DNA from: Mariniflexile fucanivorans
GTDB taxonomy: Bacteria > Bacteroidota > Bacteroidia > Flavobacteriales > Flavobacteriaceae
Direction of reading: 5' to 3'
Length of the DNA stretch: 64,000 nucleotides
Assembly: GCF_004341235.1 (NCBI RefSeq)
Contig: NZ_SLUP01000003.1
Location: forward strand, 496,001 to 560,000
Shown: positions 8,314 to 21,868 of the stretch, in pieces
Layout: each line of letters begins with the position of its first letter
Numbering within the stretch: the stretch's first letter is position 1
Translations under genes and position numbers: made by a program
Notes under the pieces: generated by a model
Told to the model about the DNA's origin: nothing
Database searches by the model: none
What the model saw: the letters and a program-made list of their open reading frames with translations, nothing else

Positions 8314-11300
8314 ATGATAAAAAATACACTTACTCTTATTTTTATATGCTTTAGCTATACATTTTTTGGACAAGCATTTACGGCAACCTGGAATACTACG
8401 AATATATCCACAGGGTCTTCAGCAGCTAATGAAATTACGATTCCAACCAACTCAGCTTATACTTATAACTATTCTGTTGATTGGGGAGATACGAATACCG
8501 ACAGCAATGTTACAGGAAACATTACCCATACATATGCTTCTCCTGGTACTTACACAATTAGTCTCACCGGAGCATTCCCTGCCATTTATTTTAATAATAC
8601 TGGGGATAGAAATAAAATTATTGAAATTTCAAGTTGGGGAACCATTACATGGCAAAGCATGGAAAATGCGTTTTATGGCTGCGAAAATTTAAATTTTGAT
8701 GCCATTGCTGCTCCAGATCTTTCACAAGTTACAAGTCTTGAAAATATGTTTAAAAGCTGTACCAGTTTTAATGGTATTGTTAATAATTGGGATGTAAGTG
8801 GCATCAATAATTTAGCAGGAACATTTGATGGGTGTAGCATATTTAATAGACCGTTAGATAATTGGAATACCATTTCTGTAACATCTATGGCCAGAACCTT
8901 TAGAAATTGTTATTATTATAACGAACCGTTAGATAATTGGAATACATCTTCTGTTGAAAACATGAATCAACTATTTAGCGGTGCAACACAATTTGATCAA
9001 AATATTGACAATTGGGATGTGAGCCAAGTTACAAATATGGCAGGCACTTTTGAAACAGCTTTAAGTTTTACTTTTCCGCTGAATAATTGGAAAGTAGATA
9101 ACGTTACTGATATGTCTAAAATGTTTTATAGATGCAGGGAATTTAACCACCCTTTAAACAACTGGAATGTTAGTAAAGTAACAACCATGAGGGAAATGTT
9201 TTATGGCTTTTTAGATATGCCATTTAATCAAAACATAAATAATTGGGATGTAAGCAACGTAACAGACATGGCATATATGTTCAGACGTTGTGCTTCTTTT
9301 AACCAACCGCTAAATAACTGGAACGTTAGTAATGTTACTGATATGAGCCACATGTTTGAAGGAGCACACACCTTTAACCAACCGATAGAAATTTGGAATG
9401 TTAGCAGTGTTGAAAATATGGCCGCCATGTTCAATGGCGAAAGCCAAAACATGGCTTTCAATCAGCCTTTAAACAATTGGATAGTAAGCAATGTAACTAA
9501 TATGAGTGAAATGTTCCAAAGTGCAACATCATTCAGCCAACCACTTAATAATTGGGATGTAAGCAAAGTTACAAACATGTCCTTGATGTTCAAAAATGCA
9601 GATGTTTTTAACCAACCTTTGGGCACTTGGAGCGTTGGTAATGTTACCAACTTTCAAGGCATGTTTCAACTTAATGATATTTTTAATCAACCTTTAAACA
9701 CTTGGAATTTAGCCAACGCAACCAATATTTCCTCCATGTTTGCTAGCGCAACAAATTTTAATCAACCGTTAGATAATTGGATAGTGAGCAAAGTAACTAA
9801 TATGTCTAGTGCATTTAGTGGCTCCACATCTTTTGATCAAAGTTTAGGGAGTTGGAATATTTCTGCAGTTACTGGTATGACTAATATGCTATCCAACAGT
9901 GGTATGTCGCAAGCAAACTATGACGCCACTTTAATTGCTTGGTCTGCTCAAACCGTAAAAGCAAATGTTACTTTAGGCGCAGCAAATTTGCAATATTGCG
10001 ATGCCCTTAACCAAAGACAAAGTTTAATTACAGATGATGGTTGGACTATTACAGGAGATAGCGTAAACTGTACTTATGTGTTATGTACAGAAATAACCAT
10101 GCCCCACGCCAGTGATACCGCTACCCCTGCAAATAGCGATATTCGATGGGATCCTGCTCCTAATGCTACTGGGTATAGAATTACTATAAGAAGGGAAAAT
10201 GGCGCAACCAACCAGTTAATATATGACAATGAAGATGTTGGAAACGTAGTGGGCGTCAATTTTACTAACGAATTTACACCTGGAGACACCGTTTATGTTA
10301 CAATAGTACCTTATAATAACGATGGTCCTGCTACAGGATGTCAAGAAATTAGCTTTACAGTTGTAGAGAGTTGGGTAAACAGTCCTGATGCCTTTAAACT
10401 TACTTACGACACTACTTTACAAGAAGGAACTACCACAACCCCTATAAATCAACTTTTAATTCAAACACAATCTGGCTTAACTTATAATTATAATATTGAT
10501 TGGGGAGATGGACAATATGATAATAACGTAACAAGTAATATTACGCACACTTATTTAACACCAGGCACCTATACTGTTAGTATTATTGGAACATTTCCCA
10601 GCCCAAGGCACAACCAATCTAGTGGTGATGCTTATAAATTATTAAGCATAGACCAATGGGGAACACACGATTGGAAAAGCATGAATAACGCCTTTGCTGG
10701 TTGTGAAAACATGGAATACAATGCAACCGATATTCCTAATTTAACCAACGTTACAGATATGAGCAGCATGTTCATTGTTTGCAAAAAATTCAATGGAAAT
10801 ATCAACAACTGGAATGTTAGCAATATAACCAACATGTATGGAATGTTTGGAGTGGCATCTATATTCAACCAACCGCTTAATAACTGGGATGTTAGCAATG
10901 TAACGAATATGAATTTCATGTTTTCTGGCGCAAGTGAATTCAATCAAAATATAAACACTTGGGATGTTTCTAGCGTTATCGATTTGGCTAGAATGTTCAG
11001 ACAAGCAACCGTATTTAACCAACCCTTAAACAGTTGGAATGTTACTAGTGCTACCGATATGTCGGAGATGTTTTCATATACTGATGCTTTTAACCAACCA
11101 TTGAATAACTGGCAGGTGCAAAATGTACTAGATATGGAAGAGATGTTCAATTACGCAAAGGCTTTTAATCAAAACATAAATAGTTGGAATGTGCTCAACG
11201 TATTAAATATGTCAGGCATGTTTAATGGTGCCACTGTTTTTAACCAACCCTTAAATTCATGGAATGTTGGCAAAGTAACTACCATGGCTTCGATGTTTTC

Positions 11301-14300
11301 TTCTGCAACTGCTTTTAATCAACCTTTAAATAACTGGAATGTCACTTCAGTAGCTACCATGGCAAGCATGTTTTCTGCTGCAACTTCCTTTAACCAAAAT
11401 ATCAATACTTGGAGTGTTACCAACGTTATTGACATGCAAAGAATGTTTTATTATGCTACGGCTTATAATCAACCGCTAGATAATTGGAATGTAGACTCGG
11501 TTGTAAATATGACCAGTATGTTTCAAAGAGCCTCAGTCTTTAATCAGCCTTTAAATACTTGGAATGTAAGTGCTGTGGCAAATATGACTTCCATGTTTGA
11601 GGATGCCATTGTTTTTAATCAACCTTTAAGCAATTGGGATGTGAGTTCGGTAACTTTAATGAGGTCTTTATTTGAAGGAGCAGCGGTTTTCAATCAAAAT
11701 ATTAATGATTGGAATGTTGGTGTTGTAACGACTGTGGAGGAAATGTTTAAAGAAGCGGTGCTTTTTAATGAACCCTTAAATAATTGGAATACAGGTGAAG
11801 TATTAACCATGAAGGAAATGTTCAGCGGTGCATATGTATTTAATCAAAATATTGATTCTTGGAATACATCTTTTGTTACTACCATGGAAGAGATGTTTAA
11901 AGATGCTCGTGCTTATAATGAAACCATGAATTCTTGGAATGTTGCTTCAGTTACTACCACTAAAGGTATGTTTCAAGGTGCTATAGCATTTAATAGCGCT
12001 ATCGATAGCTGGAACGTAAGAAAGATTCTTACTATGGAAAACATGTTTTCTGGCGCTACCAATTTTAACCAAACAGTAAATAACTGGCGTGTTAGCGGTG
12101 TTACAAACATGAATAGTATGCTTAGAAACGCAACCTCTTTTAATCAAACTTTAGACCGTTGGGACATAGGTGCAGTTACCATGCGCTTAATGTTTGATGG
12201 GGCTACAGCATATAACCAATACCTTGGCGATTGGGATATTAGTGGTGTTACCGATATGCGTGATATGCTAGATAAAACGGCACTAACCCGAGAAAATTAT
12301 GACAACACACTTATCGCATGGTCCGAACAAACACTTACACCAGGCGTAACACTTGGTGCTCAAGGTTTACCTTATTGCGATGCTTTAGAAGAACGCCAAT
12401 CGATGATTACAAACTTTGGCTGGACCATTTCTGATGATGTTTTGAATTGCCCAAAACCTGAATGCACTCAATTAACTTCACCTTTAAACAACGCAACAAA
12501 CGTTCCTGTAAACACCAATTTAAACTGGGAACCTGCCTTATTTGCTAGAGGCTATAAACTTACAGTAATTTCAAATCCAGGAAATGTAGTGATTGTAAAT
12601 AATATTACCGTAACCGATACTTCTTATGAGTTTGCATCAAATTTTGCGGGTGGTGAAACAGTACTTGTTACCATCATCCCTTTTAATGATGAAGGAGACG
12701 CGGTTGGCCCATGTACACAAGAAAGCTTTACAATATCGTCAAGTCCAGCAACAGTACCTGATTGTACAACATTAACAGACCCCTTAAATGGCACCATTAA
12801 CGTACCAATAAATACTGATTTATCATGGCAACCCATTTCAAATGCAGATGGTTATCGTTTAACTATAGGCACCTCAACAGGAGGCAATCAAATACTAGAT
12901 AGCGAAAACGTAGGAAATGTTACAACTTACGATTTAACATCAGATTTACCTGAGAATACCGAATTATTTATCACCGTCATTCCTTATAACGATGAAGGTA
13001 ATGCAACAGGATGTCCCGAAGAACGTTTTACTACTGAAATCATTCCCGTTGCCCCAAATTGCACCAGTCTTACAAGCCCTGTAAATGGTTCAACAAATGT
13101 TGTTGTCGATACCGATTTAAGTTGGAATGCCGTTTCTGGGGCAACTGGCTATATTGTGGTTGTAGGTACAACTCAAGGTGGTATTGAAACCGTTAATAAT
13201 ATAGATGTTTTAAATACCTTAACCTATAATATCCCTGATGATTTATTCCCTAATCGCACTTACTACGTAACCATAATCCCTTATAATGAAGTTGGTGATG
13301 CTGTAGGTTGTACTGAAGAAAGTTTTAGAACAGGAGCTGGTACACTAAGCGATCCACCAGCGTGTACAAATTTAAGCGCTCCTTTAAACAATGCCATAGG
13401 TGTTGCCGCAGACACTAACATTAGTTGGAATGCCGCCAGTAATACTACAGGATATAACTTAACTATTGGAACAAGTGCAGGTGCATCTGATATTTTACCT
13501 ACCACCAATGTTGGAAATTTAACGACTTATAACCCACCAACAAATTTACCAGAAGGCGCAACTATTTTTGTTTCCATTGTTCCTTTTAATGCGTTTGGAA
13601 GCGCAACAGGATGCCCAACAGAGCAATTTACCATAACACCACCACCAGTACCAATCTGCACGTCGCTTATCAGCCCTTTAAACGGCGCTGCAAACCTTCC
13701 GCTAAACACCAATTTGGAATGGACAGCTAGCACTGGTGCCAATGGATATAAACTAACGGTTAATGCTAGTAGTAGTACCGCCAATAATTTAACCAATTTC
13801 AACGTTACCTCAGGAACAACTTATAATTTTACGAATAATTTTGAACCAGGAGAAACAGTAACCGTTACCATAACTCCATACAACGCCATAGGTGATGCGG
13901 TTGGTTGTACTTCGGAAAGTTTTACCATACAACCGCTTCCAAATTGCACAAATTTAGTAACTCCTGTTAATGGCTCTATTGATGTTACCACAACAACGGA
14001 TATTGAATGGACGGCTACTGCCAATACCACAGGGTACAGACTAACCGTTTTAGCAAGCAACAGTACGTCCAATAACTTAACCAATTTCAATGTAACTTCT
14101 GGAAATACTTATAATTTTCCGAACAACTTTGAACAAGGAGAAACCGTAACCATAACCATCGTTCCGTATAATTCGGTAGGTGATGCGGTTGGCTGTACTT
14201 CTGAAAGTTTCACCATCAAATCAATTCCTACCTGTACAAACTTAACGTTGCCAACAAATGGCTCTGTTGGTGTCGCCATTAATACGAATATTGAATGGAC

Positions 14301-15672
14301 ATCCATTTTAAATGCCAACGGATACAGATTGAGCGTATCTGCAAGTAATAGTACAGCCAATAACCTGACCAATTTCAACGTGACTTCTGGAAACACCTAC
14401 AGCTTTCCAAGTAATTTTGAACAAGGAGAGACCGTAAACATTACTATCGTACCATATAATGAAGTAGGCAATGCCATAGGGTGTACTTCAGAAAGTTTTA
14501 CAATAAAATCGGTGCCAGTATGTACAAATTTAACTTCACCAGTAAATGGAGATGTTATTGTAGCTGCAAACCAAATAACATGGAATGAAACTCCTGACAC
14601 TAACGGCTACAAACTAACCATAAGAGGAAGCAACACTACCACGAACGATGTAACAGATTTACAAGTAACCGGTACTACCTACACCTTCCCAAACAATTTT
14701 GACCAAGGCGATGTCGTTACTATTACTATTGTGCCGTACAATGAAGTAGGAGATGCTATTGGGTGTACTCCAGAGAACTTCACCATACGTACACTACCAT
14801 CTTGTACTTCCTTGTTAACACCTTCAAACGGGACAACCAACGTGCCCGTAACCAGTAGTATTACATGGAATCCTTCAGCAGATGCCGATGGGTATCGTAT
14901 TGCCGTTGGAACATCTCCTAGTGGAACAGACATTGTGAATAACCAAGACATGCTATCGGCAACCAATTTCACATTTACCGGAAACCTTCCTTCGGAAACC
15001 TTAATTTATGTAAGCATCACACCTTACAACACCTCTGGTGATGCGATTGGATGTGCTTCAGAAAGTTTTGAGACCGAGGTCGTTATTCCCGATTGCACCA
15101 TACTAATAAATCCAACCAACGGTGAAACAGAGGTATCTTTAGATAGTAGCATCTCTTGGGAAGCGGTAGAAAAAACAGATGGCTATCTCTTATCCATTGG
15201 AACCACTCTGGGCGGAACTGATATTTTGGACAATCAGAATATGGGATCAGACTCAAACTACAACCATGATATAGAATTCCCTTTTGGAACGGAAATTTTC
15301 GTGTTAATCACGCCTTACAACAGCAAAGGAAATGCGGTACAGTGTGAGCAACAATCGTTTACAACCTTGGTCCCAGAAGACGATACCAAATACGGTTTCT
15401 CTCCTAACGGCGACGGCATTAATGAATATTGGCACATAGACAACATCCAATATTATCCTAAAAACACGGTAATCATTTACAACAGATGGGGCGATATGGT
15501 ATTCAAAATTGCCGACTATAATAACAATGACAATGTGTTCCGCGGGGAAGCAAACCAAATGACCAAATTGGGTGCAGGCACATTGCCTAGCGGTACTTAC
15601 TTTTTCGATATTCAGATAGAAGGAGAAACAATTCTTAAAAAAACAAAAGGCTTCGTAGTCATAAAGCGTTAA
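8314..15672 (+). CDS. Giant BspA-type repeat adhesin with PKD, Ig/Fn3-like repeats and T9SS type B sorting domain
   Basis: 2452 residues. A signal peptide is followed by a PKD-like domain (~25-100, motif SVDWGDTNTDSN). Block 1 is BspA/DUF285 leucine-rich-like repeats (~116-560, unit pattern WNVSxVTxMxxMFxxAxxFNQPLNN). One Ig/Fn3-like unit follows (~591-690). Then come a second PKD-like domain (~705-770, YNIDWGDG) and a longer second DUF285 block (~790-1365). Ten ~95-residue Ig/Fn3-like repeats begin with CT-x-L-x-x-P-x-N-G and end with the VGCTxESFTI pattern (~1384-2345). The C-terminal T9SS type B sorting domain (CHU_C family) spans ~2360-2452, beginning YGFSPNGDGINEYW. Such proteins are secreted by the type IX system and sit on the cell surface as adhesins. 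The next gene, PorP/SprF-like, starts 1 base after the stop. The long repeat array is prone to copy-number change. Confidence 0.93.
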   Translation: MIKNTLTLIFICFSYTFFGQAFTATWNTTNISTGSSAANEITIPTNSAYTYNYSVDWGDTNTDSNVTGNITHTYASPGTYTISLTGAFPAIYFNNTGDRNKIIEISSWGTITWQSMENAFYGCENLNFDAIAAPDLSQVTSLENMFKSCTSFNGIVNNWDVSGINNLAGTFDGCSIFNRPLDNWNTISVTSMARTFRNCYYYNEPLDNWNTSSVENMNQLFSGATQFDQNIDNWDVSQVTNMAGTFETALSFTFPLNNWKVDNVTDMSKMFYRCREFNHPLNNWNVSKVTTMREMFYGFLDMPFNQNINNWDVSNVTDMAYMFRRCASFNQPLNNWNVSNVTDMSHMFEGAHTFNQPIEIWNVSSVENMAAMFNGESQNMAFNQPLNNWIVSNVTNMSEMFQSATSFSQPLNNWDVSKVTNMSLMFKNADVFNQPLGTWSVGNVTNFQGMFQLNDIFNQPLNTWNLANATNISSMFASATNFNQPLDNWIVSKVTNMSSAFSGSTSFDQSLGSWNISAVTGMTNMLSNSGMSQANYDATLIAWSAQTVKANVTLGAANLQYCDALNQRQSLITDDGWTITGDSVNCTYVLCTEITMPHASDTATPANSDIRWDPAPNATGYRITIRRENGATNQLIYDNEDVGNVVGVNFTNEFTPGDTVYVTIVPYNNDGPATGCQEISFTVVESWVNSPDAFKLTYDTTLQEGTTTTPINQLLIQTQSGLTYNYNIDWGDGQYDNNVTSNITHTYLTPGTYTVSIIGTFPSPRHNQSSGDAYKLLSIDQWGTHDWKSMNNAFAGCENMEYNATDIPNLTNVTDMSSMFIVCKKFNGNINNWNVSNITNMYGMFGVASIFNQPLNNWDVSNVTNMNFMFSGASEFNQNINTWDVSSVIDLARMFRQATVFNQPLNSWNVTSATDMSEMFSYTDAFNQPLNNWQVQNVLDMEEMFNYAKAFNQNINSWNVLNVLNMSGMFNGATVFNQPLNSWNVGKVTTMASMFSSATAFNQPLNNWNVTSVATMASMFSAATSFNQNINTWSVTNVIDMQRMFYYATAYNQPLDNWNVDSVVNMTSMFQRASVFNQPLNTWNVSAVANMTSMFEDAIVFNQPLSNWDVSSVTLMRSLFEGAAVFNQNINDWNVGVVTTVEEMFKEAVLFNEPLNNWNTGEVLTMKEMFSGAYVFNQNIDSWNTSFVTTMEEMFKDARAYNETMNSWNVASVTTTKGMFQGAIAFNSAIDSWNVRKILTMENMFSGATNFNQTVNNWRVSGVTNMNSMLRNATSFNQTLDRWDIGAVTMRLMFDGATAYNQYLGDWDISGVTDMRDMLDKTALTRENYDNTLIAWSEQTLTPGVTLGAQGLPYCDALEERQSMITNFGWTISDDVLNCPKPECTQLTSPLNNATNVPVNTNLNWEPALFARGYKLTVISNPGNVVIVNNITVTDTSYEFASNFAGGETVLVTIIPFNDEGDAVGPCTQESFTISSSPATVPDCTTLTDPLNGTINVPINTDLSWQPISNADGYRLTIGTSTGGNQILDSENVGNVTTYDLTSDLPENTELFITVIPYNDEGNATGCPEERFTTEIIPVAPNCTSLTSPVNGSTNVVVDTDLSWNAVSGATGYIVVVGTTQGGIETVNNIDVLNTLTYNIPDDLFPNRTYYVTIIPYNEVGDAVGCTEESFRTGAGTLSDPPACTNLSAPLNNAIGVAADTNISWNAASNTTGYNLTIGTSAGASDILPTTNVGNLTTYNPPTNLPEGATIFVSIVPFNAFGSATGCPTEQFTITPPPVPICTSLISPLNGAANLPLNTNLEWTASTGANGYKLTVNASSSTANNLTNFNVTSGTTYNFTNNFEPGETVTVTITPYNAIGDAVGCTSESFTIQPLPNCTNLVTPVNGSIDVTTTTDIEWTATANTTGYRLTVLASNSTSNNLTNFNVTSGNTYNFPNNFEQGETVTITIVPYNSVGDAVGCTSESFTIKSIPTCTNLTLPTNGSVGVAINTNIEWTSILNANGYRLSVSASNSTANNLTNFNVTSGNTYSFPSNFEQGETVNITIVPYNEVGNAIGCTSESFTIKSVPVCTNLTSPVNGDVIVAANQITWNETPDTNGYKLTIRGSNTTTNDVTDLQVTGTTYTFPNNFDQGDVVTITIVPYNEVGDAIGCTPENFTIRTLPSCTSLLTPSNGTTNVPVTSSITWNPSADADGYRIAVGTSPSGTDIVNNQDMLSATNFTFTGNLPSETLIYVSITPYNTSGDAIGCASESFETEVVIPDCTILINPTNGETEVSLDSSISWEAVEKTDGYLLSIGTTLGGTDILDNQNMGSDSNYNHDIEFPFGTEIFVLITPYNSKGNAVQCEQQSFTTLVPEDDTKYGFSPNGDGINEYWHIDNIQYYPKNTVIIYNRWGDMVFKIADYNNNDNVFRGEANQMTKLGAGTLPSGTYFFDIQIEGETILKKTKGFVVIKR

Positions 15673-15673
15673 A

Positions 15674-16609
15674 ATGATGAAAGAAAATAATTCACGTACC
15701 ATATTAGTTTGTTTAACGCTCATTTTTGTTCTAATTGTAATTAAAACACAAGCACAACAAACACCTGCATTTTCAGAGTATAATTACAATCCGTTCATCC
15801 TAAATGCGGCATATGCTGGCTTAACCGAAAATACCGAAATATCCATAGCAAATTCGGGTCATTTTAACTCTTTTGAAGGCAGCCCAAAAAGCTTCTCCTT
15901 TAGTGGGCATGGGCAATTAAACCGAGGAAAAATGGGTGTTGGAGCCGGTATCATCCGAGATGAAATTGGTGTCACAACTTCAACATCTGCATTTGCAGCT
16001 TATTCCTATAAAATATTTTTTGATTTTGAAAACCACAGACCAAATTGGCAGATATATAGCCCAGGCGTTATTTCCTTCGGAATTACCGCTGGCATTCAAC
16101 AATTTCAAGATAATTTATTAGAATTAGGTATTGTTGATGACCCTAAATTTGCCGAAAACATTAATGCCACCATTCCAACTATTGGGCTTGGTTTCTTATT
16201 CAATCATGCATCCTTCTACGCAGGTGTTTCGGCTCCCAATGTATTAGGAGATGCGTTGGCAACCGACGATAATTTACATTTAGAAAACCCCGTTTATGGC
16301 TATTTTGGCTATCGTTTTTTCAATAACAGATTTGAAAATTTAACGATTAAACCTAACGTCCTTATTAAACATGAAAATGGTGCACCTCTGCAAGTCGATA
16401 TGAATATTGCCGTAAGTTTCAGAAATAAATTTGAAGTTGGCGCAGGCTACAGAACAAGTTCTTCGGTGAATCTATTAGCAGGTATTTACCTATTAAATAA
16501 CCTTCGATTTATATACAACTATAATGTAGCAATGAATAATTCGCCTTTAGGAAATACACATGGTTTTATTTTAAGTTGCCAGTTTGGTAAAGGTTACAGC
16601 ATCGATTAA
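15674..16609 (+). CDS. PorP/SprF family type IX secretion membrane protein
   Basis: 311 residues. The N-terminal signal segment is followed by the family hallmark QQTPAFSEYNYNPFILNAAY, in which mature proteins begin near a Q-x-P-x-(Y/F)-S-x-Y motif and the P-F/L-x-N-x-A box. The rest is strands of an outer-membrane barrel (SFSFSGHGQL, GVGAGIIRDEIGV, NVLIKHENG), and the C-terminus is GFILSCQFGKGY. PorP/SprF paralogues are typically encoded directly after one type B T9SS adhesin and are thought to help its secretion or surface attachment. That is exactly the arrangement here (1-base gap). It is therefore most likely a dedicated partner of the giant adhesin and not the core gliding-motility SprF. 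Two ATGs in tandem leave the exact start uncertain by one codon. Confidence 0.93.
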   Translation: MMKENNSRTILVCLTLIFVLIVIKTQAQQTPAFSEYNYNPFILNAAYAGLTENTEISIANSGHFNSFEGSPKSFSFSGHGQLNRGKMGVGAGIIRDEIGVTTSTSAFAAYSYKIFFDFENHRPNWQIYSPGVISFGITAGIQQFQDNLLELGIVDDPKFAENINATIPTIGLGFLFNHASFYAGVSAPNVLGDALATDDNLHLENPVYGYFGYRFFNNRFENLTIKPNVLIKHENGAPLQVDMNIAVSFRNKFEVGAGYRTSSSVNLLAGIYLLNNLRFIYNYNVAMNNSPLGNTHGFILSCQFGKGYSID

Positions 16610-16694: not shown

Positions 16695-16721
16695 TTTGCA
16701 CATATATTCTACATATATTTG
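16695..16721 (+). promoter_or_regulatory. Promoter of the gat operon
   Basis: TTTG at 16695-16698 and an exact TAnnTTTG -7 box, TATATTTG, at 16714-16721. The 15-base spacing is a little short of the usual. Transcription would start around 16727, only about 12 bases before the leader-peptide ATG, as expected for an attenuation leader. Confidence 0.6.
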
Positions 16722-16738
16722 AGGCAGAATATTTAGCA

Positions 16739-16783
16739 ATGATAAATAATAACAATAATAATTTCAATAATCCTAATTTTTAG
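16739..16783 (+). CDS. Asn-rich leader peptide of the gat operon
   Basis: A 14-codon open frame, MINNNNNNFNNPNF, then TAG. Nine of 14 residues are asparagine: six consecutive codons (16745-16762) plus positions 10, 11 and 13. It starts just after the predicted promoter and stops 3 bases before a segment able to form an antiterminator. The operon it precedes encodes the tRNA amidotransferase and an AspRS, the machinery that makes Asn-tRNA(Asn). The composition and position fit a ribosome-stalling sensor of charged Asn-tRNA, analogous in logic to the His or Trp leader peptides. No Shine-Dalgarno is evident, which is normal for Flavobacteria. I see no sign that the peptide has any other function. 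Confidence 0.75.
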   Translation: MINNNNNNFNNPNF

Positions 16784-16843
16784 GACAGGAAGGTTGTTGT
16801 TTAAAAATATATAAAGCCTTCCTAAAACGGGAAGGCTTTTTTT
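16784..16843 (+). promoter_or_regulatory. Attenuator: mutually exclusive antiterminator and terminator hairpins
   Basis: Three complementary segments are visible. Segment 2 is AGGAAGG at 16787-16793, segment 3 is CCTTCCT at 16817-16823, and segment 4 is GGAAGG at 16830-16835. Segments 2+3 pair over 7 Watson-Crick bases plus a G-U and an A-U, forming an antiterminator. Segments 3+4, extended to 10 pairs, form the terminator with T7. A ribosome terminating at the leader stop (16783) would cover segment 2 and favour termination. One stalled at the Asn codons would leave segment 2 free and favour read-through. Confidence 0.72.
16813..16843 (+). terminator. Intrinsic terminator within the gat leader
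   Basis: AAAGCCTTCC, a 7-base loop, GGAAGGCTTT and a run of seven T residues: 10 perfect pairs. It lies 17 bases before the ATG of the first structural gene of the operon it would control and about 200 bases after the PorP/SprF-like gene. Confidence 0.9.
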
Positions 16844-16860
16844 AATTTAAAATGTAAGAG

Positions 16861-17130
16861 ATGAGTAAAATTATGACAGTCGACATCTTGTCGAGTATTA
16901 AAGGAGCACAACCCAGTGAGGCGGTGAACAAATTATTTGATGTGATCAAAAATGCACAACCTACAAATAATAACTCTTTTAATAATAATCATAATAATGG
17001 CGTGTCGCTAAACGATTTAAGAGACGATGTAGTGATTGAAAGTTCTGCTATGGAAAAACAAATCATTATCGAAAATTTTCCAAAATCAAAGAATGGGTAT
17101 TTGGTAGTTTCTAAAGTTATAGAAGAATAA
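16861..17130 (+). CDS. Degenerate GatC-like subunit with Asn-rich insert
   Basis: 89 residues, the usual GatC length (~95). GatC is the small subunit that wraps round GatA and stabilises the GatCAB amidotransferase. The C-terminal half matches GatC by eye: LRDDV (53-57) aligns with the usual LReDxV, and the closing ENFPKSKNGYLVVSKVIE (71-88) aligns with the NAPxxxxGyfxVPKVIE signature. The N-terminal helical half does not resemble GatC. Between the halves is NNNSFNNNHNN (36-46), an asparagine tract echoing the leader peptide. gatA starts 2 bases after the stop. Position in the operon plus the C-terminal signature make GatC the best reading. Loss or replacement of the N-terminal helices is odd, and activity is unproven. 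Confidence 0.7.
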   Translation: MSKIMTVDILSSIKGAQPSEAVNKLFDVIKNAQPTNNNSFNNNHNNGVSLNDLRDDVVIESSAMEKQIIIENFPKSKNGYLVVSKVIEE

Positions 17131-17132
17131 TT

Positions 17133-18533
17133 ATGGACTCTCAAATAAAACAACTTCACCAACAACTGGTGAATAAAGAAATTTCTTGCACAGCTTTAGT
17201 TCAAGAAAAATTAGATGCTTTAAAAGCCAATACCAACAACACTGTAAATTCTTTATTAGATACTTTGGCACTTGAACTAGCCTCAAAAGTTGATGCAAAA
17301 ATCGCAAACGGCGAAAGTATTGGTTTGTTGGAAGGTATTCCATTTGGTATTAAAGATGTGTACATGGTTCAAGGCACTTACACAACAGCCAGCTCCGATT
17401 TACTTAAAAATTACAAATCGGCATACACCGCAACAGCTATTCAAAAATTATTGGATGCGGGTGCTATTCCATTAGTAAAAGAAAATTGCGATAGTTTTGG
17501 TCATGGGTCTTCTAGTGAAAATACCATTTTTGGCGCTGTAAAAAACGCGATTAACCCCCATTTAGTAAGTGGTGGTTCAAGTGGTGGTTCTGCCGTAAAT
17601 GTGGCGAAAGATTACACCGTATTTTCTATTGGTGGTGATACAGGAGGATCTGTCCGTCAACCTGCTGGCTACAACCATGTCTATGGTTTAAAACCAACTT
17701 ACGGGCGTATTTCACGCTACGGATTGATGGCGTATGCTTCATCAACTGACTGTGTGGGTCCTATCGCCAAATCGGTGGAAGATATTCGTATCGTGTTGAA
17801 TATAATGAGTGGCAAGGATTCTAAAGACCAAACCACGTACGCTTCCGCGGAAATTGACGAAACTTCTATTACGAATTCAGAAGGCATTAAAACCATTGGA
17901 TATTTTAAAAATTTCATTGAAAGTGATGCGATTGATCCTAAAATAAAATCTGATTTTTTAGCATCCATTGAAAAAATAAAAGCAAAAGGCATTGAAGTAA
18001 AAGAATTGGATTTCTTTAAGTCTGATATCCTAGTTTCAACCTATTATACCTTAGCAATGGCAGAAACTGCCTCTAACCTATCACGTTTAGATGGTAGTAA
18101 CTACGGTAACAGAATAGACGATAAAAACCTAAAAGAATCATACGCTGTGACACGTTCTGAGAATTTTTCCGAAGAAACAAAACGACGTATTGTGGGTGGA
18201 AACCAAGTATTATCTCAAGGGTTTTCAGATGAAATATATTTAAAAGGTTTAGCACTTCGTGATGCTATTTCAGTAAATTTTGAAAACGATTTTAATGAAG
18301 TCGATATCATTTTATCACCCGTAACACCGAATTCCCCTCCAAAAATTGGCGATAGTTTAAAAGATCCGCACGCCATGTATTTAAGCGATGCATACACCGT
18401 TGGTTTTAGCTTAGGGCAGCTACCAACGTTAACCGTACCACAAGGCACAGAAACTGGCTTACAAATTACAGCCGCAAAAAATAACGACGAACTTGTTTTG
18501 AAGTTTGCTAACTTCTTAAAAGACACATTATAA
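17133..18533 (+). CDS. gatA: Amidase-type subunit of tRNA-dependent amidotransferase (GatA-like)
   Basis: 466 residues. GatA releases ammonia from glutamine for conversion of Asp-tRNA(Asn) to Asn-tRNA(Asn) or Glu-tRNA(Gln) to Gln-tRNA(Gln). The amidase-signature catalytic triad is intact: Lys74 (GIPFGIKDVY), Ser149 (SGGSSGGS, 146-153) and Ser173 (GGDTGGSVRQPA). Spacing of 75 and 24 residues is the same as in characterised GatA. The GLKPTYGRISRYGL segment is also conserved. It follows the GatC-like gene by 2 bases, and its stop overlaps the next start (TAATG at 18531-18535), so translation is coupled. Stand-alone amidase is the alternative, but the operon with GatB makes GatA nearly certain. 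Confidence 0.94.
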   Translation: MDSQIKQLHQQLVNKEISCTALVQEKLDALKANTNNTVNSLLDTLALELASKVDAKIANGESIGLLEGIPFGIKDVYMVQGTYTTASSDLLKNYKSAYTATAIQKLLDAGAIPLVKENCDSFGHGSSSENTIFGAVKNAINPHLVSGGSSGGSAVNVAKDYTVFSIGGDTGGSVRQPAGYNHVYGLKPTYGRISRYGLMAYASSTDCVGPIAKSVEDIRIVLNIMSGKDSKDQTTYASAEIDETSITNSEGIKTIGYFKNFIESDAIDPKIKSDFLASIEKIKAKGIEVKELDFFKSDILVSTYYTLAMAETASNLSRLDGSNYGNRIDDKNLKESYAVTRSENFSEETKRRIVGGNQVLSQGFSDEIYLKGLALRDAISVNFENDFNEVDIILSPVTPNSPPKIGDSLKDPHAMYLSDAYTVGFSLGQLPTLTVPQGTETGLQITAAKNNDELVLKFANFLKDTL

Positions 18534-21500
18534 TGGATTTAGAACAATTAGATGCAGCGTTAAAAACGCACGATTTAGAGTTAGTTATCGGACTTGAAAC
18601 GCATGTTCGATTAAACACAAAAACCAAGTTATTTTGTTCGTGCCCAAACCAGGAAATAGACACGCCAAACCAAAACATCTGTTCGGTTTGTACAGGTCAA
18701 ATGGGCGTACTTCCTGCTATTAACAAAGAAGCAATTACCAAGGCTATTTATTTTGGAAAAGCGGTAAATTCATCATTTCAAAATGAAGTCATTTCCTGGG
18801 ACAGAAAGCATTACGAATATCCTGACAATCCAAAGAACATCCAAATTACGCAGTTTCATAACCCCGTAATTCCAGATGGACAAGTATCTTGTTTCCGTAA
18901 TGATGGATCGCAATTTACGGTTAATTTAACGCAAGTTCACATTGAGGAAGATGCGGCTAAATTAATGCACGAAAAAACAGTTTCGTTAGTCGATTTCAAT
19001 AAAGCGGGTGTGCCGTTAATTGAAATTGTTACCGAACCTTGTATTCGCCATATTGAAGATGCTTCCACGTATGCGCAATACATTCAGCGTATTGTTCAGA
19101 ATTTAAAAATATCTGAAGCAAATCTTGAAAAAGGTGAGTTTAAATCCGATGTTTCGGTATCGCTTCGTAAAAAAAGAAGTTACGATTTAAACCCACGTAC
19201 CGAGATTAAAAACTTGAATTCGTTTAAGTTTATGGTCGATGCGTTAAAGGAAGAAGTTGAAAAACAACTCAACTATTATATAGAACATAAAGAGTTTAGA
19301 CCCGACCAAACCACGGTTTTATGGGATGCCGATTTAAAGCAAACCAAAACCATGCGTAAAAAGGAATTTGAAGCCGATTATCGTTTTATTTCAGAGCCCG
19401 ATTTACCTTTTGTAAATATTAAAAATGTGGTGGAATCTATTAAAGTAGATGTAAGTTCATTGCCTTTTGCTGTAGAATCTATTTTAATTAATGGTGGTGT
19501 ATTGCCGCAAGATGCTAAGTTTTTTACGGCAGATTCGTTACGTTCTGAAACTTTTGTTGCCATTAATAATGTACTTAAAGATCCATCATTCGTTGCGAAA
19601 ACATTAGTAAATAATATCGGTGCCGATGAGTATGGAGACATTCACAGAATTGAACACCTGATTGAAATTTTTCAACTTTTTAAAGATGAAAAAATCACAT
19701 CGGTATTGGTTCAAAATGCCATTACAAGGTATTTAAAAGACCGAACTTTTGATTACATTACCTATTTTGAAGAGAATACCATTTCCGAAGAAAAAATACA
19801 AGAAGCGATTTCAAAAGTGATTGCAGAAAATGAAGCTATTGCCAATGAAATTAAAGCTGGAAACCAAGGAAAAGCAGGTATTTTAGTCGGAAAAATTATT
19901 GCCATTATTGGAAAAGGTGCTTCAGGAAAAGTGATTCGTGAAGGAATTTTAAATCAGTTGCAAAGTTCAAATTCAACAGTTGAAAGTGCTTTAACCTCTA
20001 ATGAATCACCAAAAACTAAAAACCAAAAACCAGAAACCAAGGAGGAAGAAGCTCTACCTCAAATTCCCATCATCATCAAAGAGGAATACAGAACCCATTT
20101 AATAACGGATATTTCCGATGTAAGTATTTCAGAAAAAGTAACCTTTGCAGGTTGGGTTTCGAGTGTGCGTGACCATGGGGAATTGATATTTATCGATTTA
20201 CGCGATTCCAGTGCCGAAGTATTCCAAGTGCGTTTAAGTAGAGAATCCTTCCCTAATTTAGACGAACTGGTAAAACTAAAACCAGAGTCGGTTATTACCG
20301 TTACGGGAACTATTGTACAACGTAAAGAAGACGATTACAACACCGCTTTACGAACTGGAAAAATTGAATTAGAGGCAACCGATTTAGATATTTTAAACCT
20401 ATCAAGAACGCTGCCTTTTGAAATAAAACGTGCTACAAAAACGAATGAAAACATCCGTTTTCAATATAAATATTTAGACCACAGAAATGACGATGTGCGC
20501 CGTGTGATTGTGAATCGCCACAAGGTTATCAAGTTATTACGTGATATTTTAGACGACCAAAATTTCCTAGAAATTGAAACACCTATTTTAAGCGCAGGTA
20601 CCGATGAAGGCGCACGCGAATTCATTGTACCAACACGCAAACAACCTGGTGCGTTTTATACCTTACCACAAGCACCTCAGCAATTCAAACAAATGTTGAT
20701 GGTAAGTGGTTACGAAAAGTATTTCCAAATTGCACGTTGTTTTAGAGACGAAGATTCTCGTGGCGACCGTCAACCAGAATTTACACAATTAGATATTGAG
20801 GTTGCCTATGCGAGTATGCAACAAATCATCGATTTAAACACCAACATGTTTAACGAGGTGGTGAACAAAATATATGGTAATAAATGGATTTTACGCCCTT
20901 TTGAGGTCATTACCTACCAAGAAGCCATGGAGTTTTATGGTTGTGATAGACCCGATTTACGTTTCGGTTTAAAACTTCAAGACATCACCCACATTGTAAA
21001 AGATACCACATTCCAAGTTTTTAGTAAACCTATTGAAGATGGTGGTATTGTAAAATGTATTAAAGTGTCTGCGGAAGAACAAGGTAATAAACGTATCTCG
21101 AAAGGGCAAATTGAAAAACTAACCAGCATTGCACAACAGCATGGTTTGGGTGGTTTGGCTTATATTATTGTAAACGAGAACGATTTACAATCGCCTATCA
21201 TTAAATTTTTAGGTGAAGATATTGCTGCAGGAATTATTGAAACAACCAACGCGCAAGTGGGTGATATCGTGTTTTTCTCGGCTGCCGATTATGCCACTGC
21301 CAACAAAGCCTTGGATGCCGTACGTCAAGAATTAGGTAAAATGTTGCATTTAATTAATGCGAAGGAATTACGCCCTGCATGGGTGGTTGATTTCCCAATG
21401 TTTGAAAAAACAGATGAAGGTCGCTGGACGTTTACCCACAACCCATTCTCAATGCCTGCGGTTGTCGATTTAGACAAACATATGAATGGCAAGGAAGAAG

Positions 21501-21868
21501 AAATTGGCAGCATCATTGCGCAACAATACGATTTAATTTTGAACGGTTACGAAATTGGTGGTGGTTCTGTACGTGCACACAAGCCAGAAATTTTGGAAGC
21601 AACCTACAAAAACATGGGTTACAACAAAGAAGAAATGCTTAAAAGCGTTGGCACCATGTACAAAGCGTTCCATTATGGCGCGCCGCCACACGGTGGTATT
21701 GCTTGGGGTGTAGACCGTTTGATGATGATTTTAGAGAAAAAAGCATCCATACGTGAAGTGATGGCATTCCCAAAAACAGGAACTAGTGAAGATCTACTAT
21801 TTGGAGCTCCTTCCCTACTTTCCGATAAAAAAGTGGAAGAAATGAATGTGCGGGTTATGAGGAAATAA
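18533..21868 (+). CDS. gatB/aspS: GatB-AspRS fusion: amidotransferase subunit B joined to aspartyl-tRNA synthetase
   Basis: 1111 residues. Residues ~10-477 are GatB, the kinase/tRNA-binding subunit: VIGLETHVRLNTKTKLFC with zinc ligands Cys35, Cys37, Cys50 and Cys53, FNKAGVPLIEIVTEP, and a C-terminal GatB/YqeY tRNA-binding domain ending GKASGKVIREGILNQL. A ~40-residue low-complexity linker follows. Residues ~517-1111 are a complete bacterial AspRS with OB-fold anticodon domain (FAGWVSSVRDHGELIFIDLR), class II motif 2 (RCFRDEDSRGDRQPEFTQ), GAD insertion and motif 3 (GGIAWGVDRLMM). His548 in RDHG replaces the Leu found in E. coli AspRS (RDLG). From memory, His at this position marks bacterial non-discriminating AspRS that also charges tRNA(Asn). 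Ligation and amidation on one polypeptide would be a built-in transamidosome. I recall this fusion as an existing annotation name in Flavobacteria. Confidence 0.95.
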   Translation: MDLEQLDAALKTHDLELVIGLETHVRLNTKTKLFCSCPNQEIDTPNQNICSVCTGQMGVLPAINKEAITKAIYFGKAVNSSFQNEVISWDRKHYEYPDNPKNIQITQFHNPVIPDGQVSCFRNDGSQFTVNLTQVHIEEDAAKLMHEKTVSLVDFNKAGVPLIEIVTEPCIRHIEDASTYAQYIQRIVQNLKISEANLEKGEFKSDVSVSLRKKRSYDLNPRTEIKNLNSFKFMVDALKEEVEKQLNYYIEHKEFRPDQTTVLWDADLKQTKTMRKKEFEADYRFISEPDLPFVNIKNVVESIKVDVSSLPFAVESILINGGVLPQDAKFFTADSLRSETFVAINNVLKDPSFVAKTLVNNIGADEYGDIHRIEHLIEIFQLFKDEKITSVLVQNAITRYLKDRTFDYITYFEENTISEEKIQEAISKVIAENEAIANEIKAGNQGKAGILVGKIIAIIGKGASGKVIREGILNQLQSSNSTVESALTSNESPKTKNQKPETKEEEALPQIPIIIKEEYRTHLITDISDVSISEKVTFAGWVSSVRDHGELIFIDLRDSSAEVFQVRLSRESFPNLDELVKLKPESVITVTGTIVQRKEDDYNTALRTGKIELEATDLDILNLSRTLPFEIKRATKTNENIRFQYKYLDHRNDDVRRVIVNRHKVIKLLRDILDDQNFLEIETPILSAGTDEGAREFIVPTRKQPGAFYTLPQAPQQFKQMLMVSGYEKYFQIARCFRDEDSRGDRQPEFTQLDIEVAYASMQQIIDLNTNMFNEVVNKIYGNKWILRPFEVITYQEAMEFYGCDRPDLRFGLKLQDITHIVKDTTFQVFSKPIEDGGIVKCIKVSAEEQGNKRISKGQIEKLTSIAQQHGLGGLAYIIVNENDLQSPIIKFLGEDIAAGIIETTNAQVGDIVFFSAADYATANKALDAVRQELGKMLHLINAKELRPAWVVDFPMFEKTDEGRWTFTHNPFSMPAVVDLDKHMNGKEEEIGSIIAQQYDLILNGYEIGGGSVRAHKPEILEATYKNMGYNKEEMLKSVGTMYKAFHYGAPPHGGIAWGVDRLMMILEKKASIREVMAFPKTGTSEDLLFGAPSLLSDKKVEEMNVRVMRK
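20009..20040 (+). repeat. Low-complexity A/C-rich repeat in the GatB-AspRS linker
   Basis: Near-tandem units of the AAAAACCA type encode the in-frame linker residues PKTKNQKPETK between the two enzymes. The composition is unlike the flanking coding DNA and resembles short A/C-rich dispersed repeats seen elsewhere in Flavobacteria. Confidence 0.5.

Follow-up and report, generated by a model that had tools for sequence, protein, structure and literature searches.

The window analysed here, a stretch of 64,000 nucleotides from Mariniflexile fucanivorans (contig NZ_SLUP01000003.1, positions 496,001 to 560,000), carries on its forward strand an operon that encodes GatA, GatB, GatC and an aspartyl-tRNA synthetase (AspRS) together, the gene set by which tRNA-dependent asparagine synthesis is recognized. 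The first gene (16861-17130; 89 residues with an Asn-rich linker) is GatC-like. The second, gatA (17133-18533; 466 residues), matches the Pfam Amidase model with 375 bits, and its best NCBIfam match, TIGR00132, reaches 431 bits, below the cut-off of 481. The third is a gatB-aspS fusion (18533-21868; 1,111 residues), in which residues 14-477 match the GatB model NF004012 (397 bits, cut-off 338) and residues 518-1109 match the AspRS model NF001750 (708 bits, cut-off 443). The genes are separated by +2 nt (gatC to gatA) and -1 nt (gatA to gatB-aspS). A sequence-only reading of this DNA had named the same three genes; gatA and gatB-aspS are borne out, and the GatC match stays just under the Pfam cut-off (21.4 versus 23 bits). 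The fusion is a covalent two-enzyme assembly for tRNA-Asn, with an AspRS of the bacterial type, and our literature search found no paper naming such a protein. The GatC-like linker reads NNNSFNNNHNN in the window (16955-17000), and across the 79 operons compared below (L007-L086), leader-bearing or not, this protein is 86-90 residues long and contains 7 to 16 Asn; the Asn share in the window is 14.6% for the GatC-like protein, 6.2% for GatA and 5.4% for GatB-AspRS. Such a linker is odd for an enzyme required under asparagine shortage; it might serve as an additional brake or have no role beyond linking. Further upstream, a very large (2,452 residues), secreted-looking repeat protein (8314-15672) is followed by a PorP/SprF-type gene (15674-16609). 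The leader described below sits between the latter gene and the gatC start at 16861, its terminator ending at 16843.

The leader ORF, MINNNNNNFNNPNF, has 14 codons and lies at 16739-16783 on the forward strand, with its ATG at 16739 and its stop codon, TAG, at 16781-16783. It contains nine Asn codons, which agrees with the Asn-rich leader peptide ending at 16783 that had been proposed. Among the 658 ORFs of 8-20 codons with an ATG start in the window (333 on the forward and 325 on the reverse strand), at least six Asn occur only in this one. Ahead of it stands a -7 promoter box, TATATTTG (16714-16721, forward strand), of the type TANNTTTG, which we take to be the Bacteroidota -7 consensus. This type is found 10-20 nt upstream of the leader ATG in all 48 leader-bearing loci described below, versus 4.2% of base-shuffled upstream stretches. 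In the window, the -33 box is only a weak one, and the 48 loci share no clear consensus there, which corrects the earlier report of promoter boxes. The transcript would start near 16728, with a 5' untranslated part of only about 10 nt.

Four segments of the RNA, all on the forward strand, can pair in alternative ways. In the minimum free energy fold, segment 1 (16751-16765), which consists of Asn codons and the Phe codon, pairs with segment 2 (AGGAAGGUUGUUGUU, 16787-16801). The other partner of segment 2 is segment 3 (16813-16823), which is also the 5' arm of an intrinsic terminator; the 3' arm and the U tract, located by a terminator scan, make up segment 4 (16829-16843). A small hairpin, UCCUAA/UUAGGA (16771-16785; 16771-16776 with 16780-16785), spans the 3' end of the ORF, stop codon included. 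Both pairings put forward from the sequence alone were confirmed: AGGAAGG at 16787-16793 is complementary to CCTTCCT at 16817-16823 (2:3), and AAAGCCTTCC at 16813-16822 is complementary to GGAAGGCTTT at 16830-16839, with T from 16837 to 16843 (3:4). The initial description of three segments and two exclusive pairings was nevertheless incomplete, because it lacked a third pairing (1:2), in which 16751-16759 and 16762-16765 pair with 16789-16801, i.e., the Asn codons themselves are paired. In the fold of 16727-16860, the leader-ORF letters AACAAUAAU and UUUC pair with GAAGGUUGUUGUU beyond the stop. Together, 1:2, 2:3 and 3:4 form the full classical attenuator set, in which antiterminator and terminator exclude each other and the U tract precedes the first gene. 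The folding of this region, suggested at the outset as a check, gave -28.6 kcal/mol and a z-score of -4.04, with none of 200 shuffles as stable, and none of 3,000 dinucleotide shuffles of 16784-16860 combined a terminator with an exact 6-nt stretch competing for its 5' arm.

We then compared this region among relatives. Bacterial and archaeal genomes were scanned with GatB-AspRS as the query, and of the 571 loci that matched, the best 80 were taken, each with an identity of 83% or more in its best segment; 78 of these hold a gatC-like gene, and two (L064 and L069) were excluded since the contig ends inside gatA. The leader is present in 48 of 79 gatC-gatA-gatB/aspS operons (78 relatives from the best 80 of 571, plus the window) and absent from 31, counts that do not come from independent lineages, as the 80 relatives are the closest of the 571 matches. 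Its sequence is almost unchanged across dozens of related species, among them the type strain Gaetbulibacter saemankumensis DSM 17032 (L010). Our leader pattern requires F[NI][NT][PS], and a frame-blind nucleotide core yields the same 48 loci. At all 48, the Asn frame is open from an ATG, versus 0/48 for either of the other two frames; the ATG lies 7 to 9 codons upstream of the core, and the stop follows the first codon of the core at a constant distance of 7 codons. At every locus, a short predicted leader ORF repeats a single regulatory codon, in the common form M-x(1-4)-N-run-FNNPN-x-stop. Conservation of the Asn codons in relatives was a test set beforehand, and its outcome was positive, with 6 to 10 Asn codons in each of the 48 leaders.

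At codons 6 and 5 before Phe, which lie outside the pairing, Asn is found in 42 and 45 of 48 leaders, encoded by AAT/AAC in 33/9 and 25/20 cases; at the unpaired codons +1 and +2 it is found in 46 and 47. Asn occupies codons outside the helices in 42 to 48 of 48 leaders with AAT and AAC alternating, the pattern expected if selection acts on Asn codons and not merely on pairing letters. This bears on the idea of an arrest peptide or general translation sensor, in which NNFNNPN or the Pro codon near the stop would slow the ribosome and the signal would not be Asn-tRNA. On the one hand, F is present in 48/48 and P in 47/48 leaders, and FNNP is stricter than the codons at both ends of the ORF. On the other hand, the conserved UUC and CCU letters sit in the 1:2 helix and the small hairpin, so their conservation is explained at the RNA level; the 6-10 Asn codons, and the alternation of AAT with AAC at positions outside the helices, speak for Asn decoding, and Asn-tRNA would be made by the operon. 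We regard a leader of this kind as improbable.

The alternative pairings are conserved as well. In an alignment of 47 of the 48 leaders (A1; L050, with an interrupted T tract, was omitted), 97.7% of cells are paired in the segment 1 helix, 99.6% in the small hairpin, 98.9% in the 2:3 helix and 93.4% in the 3:4 helix, where the alignment misplaces some loops. Retention of both structures in relatives, also a test fixed in advance, was clear: 1:2, the small hairpin and 3:4 jointly have 96.5% of cells paired (42-63% when slid by 1-3 columns), and the small hairpin with 2:3 has 99.2% (29-66% when slid likewise). Left to itself, the consensus fold selects the 2:3 helix. The sequence-only reading had called for conserved Asn-rich ORFs and covarying hairpins; conservation was found, but covariation is practically absent. 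Base changes in the helices of the 47 leaders are nearly all to G-U, both sides changed in only 2 of 1,316 cells (118 of 500 shuffles reach the same measure), and the 2:3 helix shows no both-sided changes. Covariation is negligible because the paired letters hardly vary, and its lack is to be expected, since segments 2 and 3 each have two partners and most paired changes are forbidden; even so, missing covariation is no evidence for the structure.

Folding with a ribosome placed on the leader separates the two structures. For untranslated RNA, 1:2 and the terminator form in 48/48 leaders. Given a footprint, assumed in value, that masks 10 nt past the A-site codon, a ribosome in the Asn run lets the RNA made ahead of segment 4 adopt 2:3 in 47/48 (mean -17.1 kcal/mol), and a ribosome at the stop codon gives 2:3 in 0/48 and the terminator in 48/48. 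Both geometry and folding therefore have the ribosome at the stop codon masking segment 2 and the ribosome in the Asn run leaving it free, and the classical attenuation geometry proposed earlier is reproduced. Once segment 4 is present, the terminator is energetically favoured in 45-47 of 48 leaders even with the ribosome in the Asn run; thus, the antiterminator must win by timing, by forming first.

A search of the whole window against Rfam gave no match at gathering score; for 16700-16870, 20 matches had E up to 1, and none of them was T-box. The leader models that did score were Phe_leader (32.7 versus 55 bits), Thr_leader (21.5 versus 55) and His_leader (17.9 versus 49), all below gathering. 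These results weigh against an RNA bound by tRNA(Asn) or by GatB-AspRS, T-box-like or autogenous, with the ORF a by-product of an A-rich pairing segment. An enzyme that binds tRNA could also bind its own leader, and a T-box governs the same function in Clostridium acetobutylicum, to judge by the title of a cited reference. However, neither T-box nor any other known RNA family was found in the window at gathering score, the best sub-threshold match in the region is Phe_leader, and the leader frame is open in 48/48 loci. We hold such an RNA to be very unlikely.

To delimit the distribution of the leader, a covariance model (R1) was searched in 199 genomes of the family with strict filters that lose weak matches. 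It gave 23 strong matches (E from 1.2e-19 to 2.9e-14; the next was 5.1e-6), all with a leader ORF and with a gatC-like gene about 140 nt past the leader start or slightly further. The window's genome has one significant match, this copy (next E, 0.08). A survey of the class (296 genomes, with few from the same family) yielded no further convincing match. Among the weak matches (E from 5.1e-6 to 0.01), the seven best-scoring ones taken as loci in the family (L112-L118) were not accepted as members, having neither leader motif nor gatC-like gene; two matches from the class survey (L207 and L208) were rejected on the same grounds. Use of the same leader before asnB was dismissed too: an AsnB match occurs in 150 genomes, and the 40 upstream regions inspected from these contain no Asn-rich short ORF. 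A phage origin of the element was set aside, with no match among phage records.

The leader is absent from 31 of the 79 operons (from the best 80 of 571) and from 13 of 35 family genomes with the fusion, and it is therefore dispensable for the operon. The sequence before gatC showed no Asn-rich stretch (at most 5 Asn per 12 residues) in these 13 genomes, nor in 8 with the fusion that belong to another family. The latter family (f13, same class) has a fusion-length frame after gatC-like and gatA genes in 8 genomes; judging by frame length, the C-terminal half of the encoded protein would be AspRS. On a quick tree of the 79 fusion proteins, the leader label requires at least 10 changes, 6 of them forced by well-supported branches, so loss or gain of the leader occurred repeatedly. 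An arrangement common to leaderless relatives is AAAACTTTCGTAATTTTG...CTTAAAAGTTT. A TANNTTYG box stands 37-40 nt upstream of gatC in 20 of the 31 leaderless loci (from the best 80 of 571), with a 21st at 82 nt, and the same promoter arrangement recurs in leaderless survey genomes. With this other promoter near gatC, control appears to switch between attenuation and a direct promoter. Several leaderless loci (L007, L026, L054, L059, L076, L240-L249 and others) also have a near-palindrome, AAACTTT...AAAGTTT, around the -7 box near gatC, which could be a protein-binding site. That the leader is a separate small RNA or small-protein gene merely preceding the operon would fit its own promoter box and terminator, and a second promoter just before gatC is possible in leader-bearing species, but we give this very little credence, as the gatC-like gene is always adjacent (23/23 model matches), segment 2 competes with the terminator, and leaderless relatives instead carry a different promoter close to gatC.

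What the operon makes can be judged from gene content and distribution. A full-length GatB-AspRS fusion was identified in 35 of the 199 family genomes. Canonical AsnB (NF006949, E up to 1e-100) or AsnA (PF03590) was found in none of the 35, the window's genome (G000) and the other 34 alike, versus 157 of the 164 other genomes (Fisher value 2e-32, kinship ignored). Overall, AsnB matches occur in 150 of the 199 genomes (149 above the cut-off) and AsnA in 13. Seven non-fusion genomes lack both, one of them (G108) with a short leader-bearing contig. The window's genome also encodes separate AspRS, AsnRS, GluRS and GlnRS; thus, the fused AspRS is a second one. It further encodes two AsnB-like amidotransferases (L087:1357-3333, reverse strand, 658 residues; L088:763-2655, forward strand, 630 residues), which score above the TIGR01536 asparagine synthase cut-off and far below that of NF006949; beside one of them lies a gene that we take to be NAD-synthase-like. 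Given AsnRS and these two proteins, the operon may not be the sole source of asparagine.

AsnRS is absent from three of the 199 genomes (G034, G153 and G195), and the fusion is present in G153 and G195, where the fused route is therefore likely the only source of Asn-tRNA(Asn). Both genomes (loci L237 and L238), likely obligate users of this indirect route, lack the leader, as expected if the pathway must stay on, although two cases prove little. The fused AspRS has the motif RDHGE in 76 of 79 fusions, the other 3 being unmatched by the pattern; we assume that His at this position marks a non-discriminating AspRS, although the papers found did not confirm this rule and none named the residues that mark such enzymes. 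The one tRNA-Asn gene that was read has U1-A72, which, according to the accessible part of PMC4206432, bacterial GatCAB needs on tRNA-Asn. The condition attached to the original proposal, that the AspRS be non-discriminating, has indirect support in the lack of canonical AsnA and AsnB in 35 fusion genomes, the two genomes without AsnRS, and U1-A72. The operon resembles tRNA-dependent asparagine synthesis and probably makes this bacterium's asparagine, and the regulatory codon, Asn, matches the product deduced in this way.

Taken together, the leader is very probably a ribosome-mediated transcription attenuator that senses Asn-tRNA(Asn) ahead of gatC-gatA-gatB/aspS. From the sequence, its conservation, the open frame, the gene content and the distribution, the following course of events may be proposed. 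Transcription would start about 10 nt before the leader ATG. When charged Asn-tRNA is plentiful, the ribosome would pass the six-Asn run and reach the TAG stop, where it would cover segment 2; segment 3 would then pair with segment 4, and transcription would stop at the U tract before gatC. When Asn-tRNA is short, the ribosome would stall in the Asn run, on segment 1, leaving segment 2 free to pair with segment 3 before segment 4 is made; no terminator would form, and gatC-gatA-gatB/aspS would be transcribed. If the leader is untranslated, segment 1 with its Asn codons would pair with segment 2, and the terminator would stay on. The genes are thus most likely turned on only under asparagine shortage, and the predicted enzymes, by loading Asp onto tRNA(Asn) and amidating it to Asn-tRNA(Asn), would close the loop.

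It is conceivable, if rather unlikely, that the leader gauges flux through tRNA-dependent asparagine synthesis, and with it the nitrogen state, and not asparagine supply alone. By general understanding, EF-Tu does not accept Asp-tRNA(Asn) before its amidation. As this tRNA would be unfit for Asn codons, slow amidation, when glutamine or ATP is scarce, would halt the ribosome on the leader in the same way as asparagine shortage. If so, this would be the first leader peptide that senses a tRNA which is also the substrate on which the regulated enzymes assemble the amino acid.

Whether as a sensor of asparagine supply or of flux, the attenuator has the build of the amino-acid leaders of Proteobacteria (trp, his, phe, thr, leu and ilv): an ORF with regulatory codons, 1:2, 2:3 and 3:4 pairing, and a terminator before the first gene. 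It differs from them in its Asn codons, in its occurrence in Bacteroidota, and in its target, which is tRNA-dependent amidation rather than synthesis of a free amino acid. The best reading is that the mechanism is known, namely, amino-acid leader attenuation, and that the specificity and the target are new. According to the accessible part of a 2010 survey (PMC2965389), leader peptides were known only from Proteobacteria and Actinobacteria before Firmicutes were added. In Flavobacterium psychrophilum, a member of the same family, leader peptides are reported upstream of amino-acid biosynthesis operons and attenuation was inferred; the main text of that study, as far as accessible, mentions neither asparagine nor gatA (PMC9723704), and this leader is absent from the Flavobacterium operons that we compared (within the best 80 of 571). 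Our literature search, with most subscription journals outside its reach, turned up no leader peptide that acts through Asn codons; within the literature searched, the present attenuator would be the first of the leader-peptide type for asparagine.

Bdellovibrio, Deinococcus and Thermus possess both routes to Asn-tRNA(Asn), and the window's genome is like theirs, as described in the accessible part of PMC4206432, in having AsnRS, GlnRS and the GatCAB route, a U1-A72 tRNA-Asn and no canonical asparagine synthetase. A second AspRS is common to Deinococcus, Thermus and the window's genome; here it is of the bacterial type and fused to GatB, whereas in Deinococcus-Thermus it is archaeal-type and separate (PMC4206432, same part). 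Leader-peptide control goes unmentioned for these three genera in that part of the article, in which rescue of an E. coli Asn auxotroph is described for Bdellovibrio. For the second, fused AspRS beside AsnRS, attenuation by Asn codons would suggest a physiological role: asparagine would be made on tRNA when free asparagine is short. The close relatives with and without the leader amount to a natural experiment.

The nearest functional parallel comes from Clostridium acetobutylicum, in which, by the titles of 2012 and 2013 papers cited in PMC4206432, a T-box senses tRNA(Asn) charging and there is an extra gatCAB/aspS set. The earlier statement that leader control of a tRNA amidotransferase was not described thus stands, within the literature searched, for a leader peptide but not for the function, which in this organism is under a T-box. 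In both cases, as far as those titles tell, an RNA switch for tRNA(Asn) charging would act over gatCAB/aspS for asparagine and Asn-tRNA. The T-box, however, binds tRNA directly, and here, where no T-box was found, a leader with Asn codons would do the reading. Flavobacteriaceae, with a leader peptide, and Clostridium, with a T-box, would then have converged on the same job.
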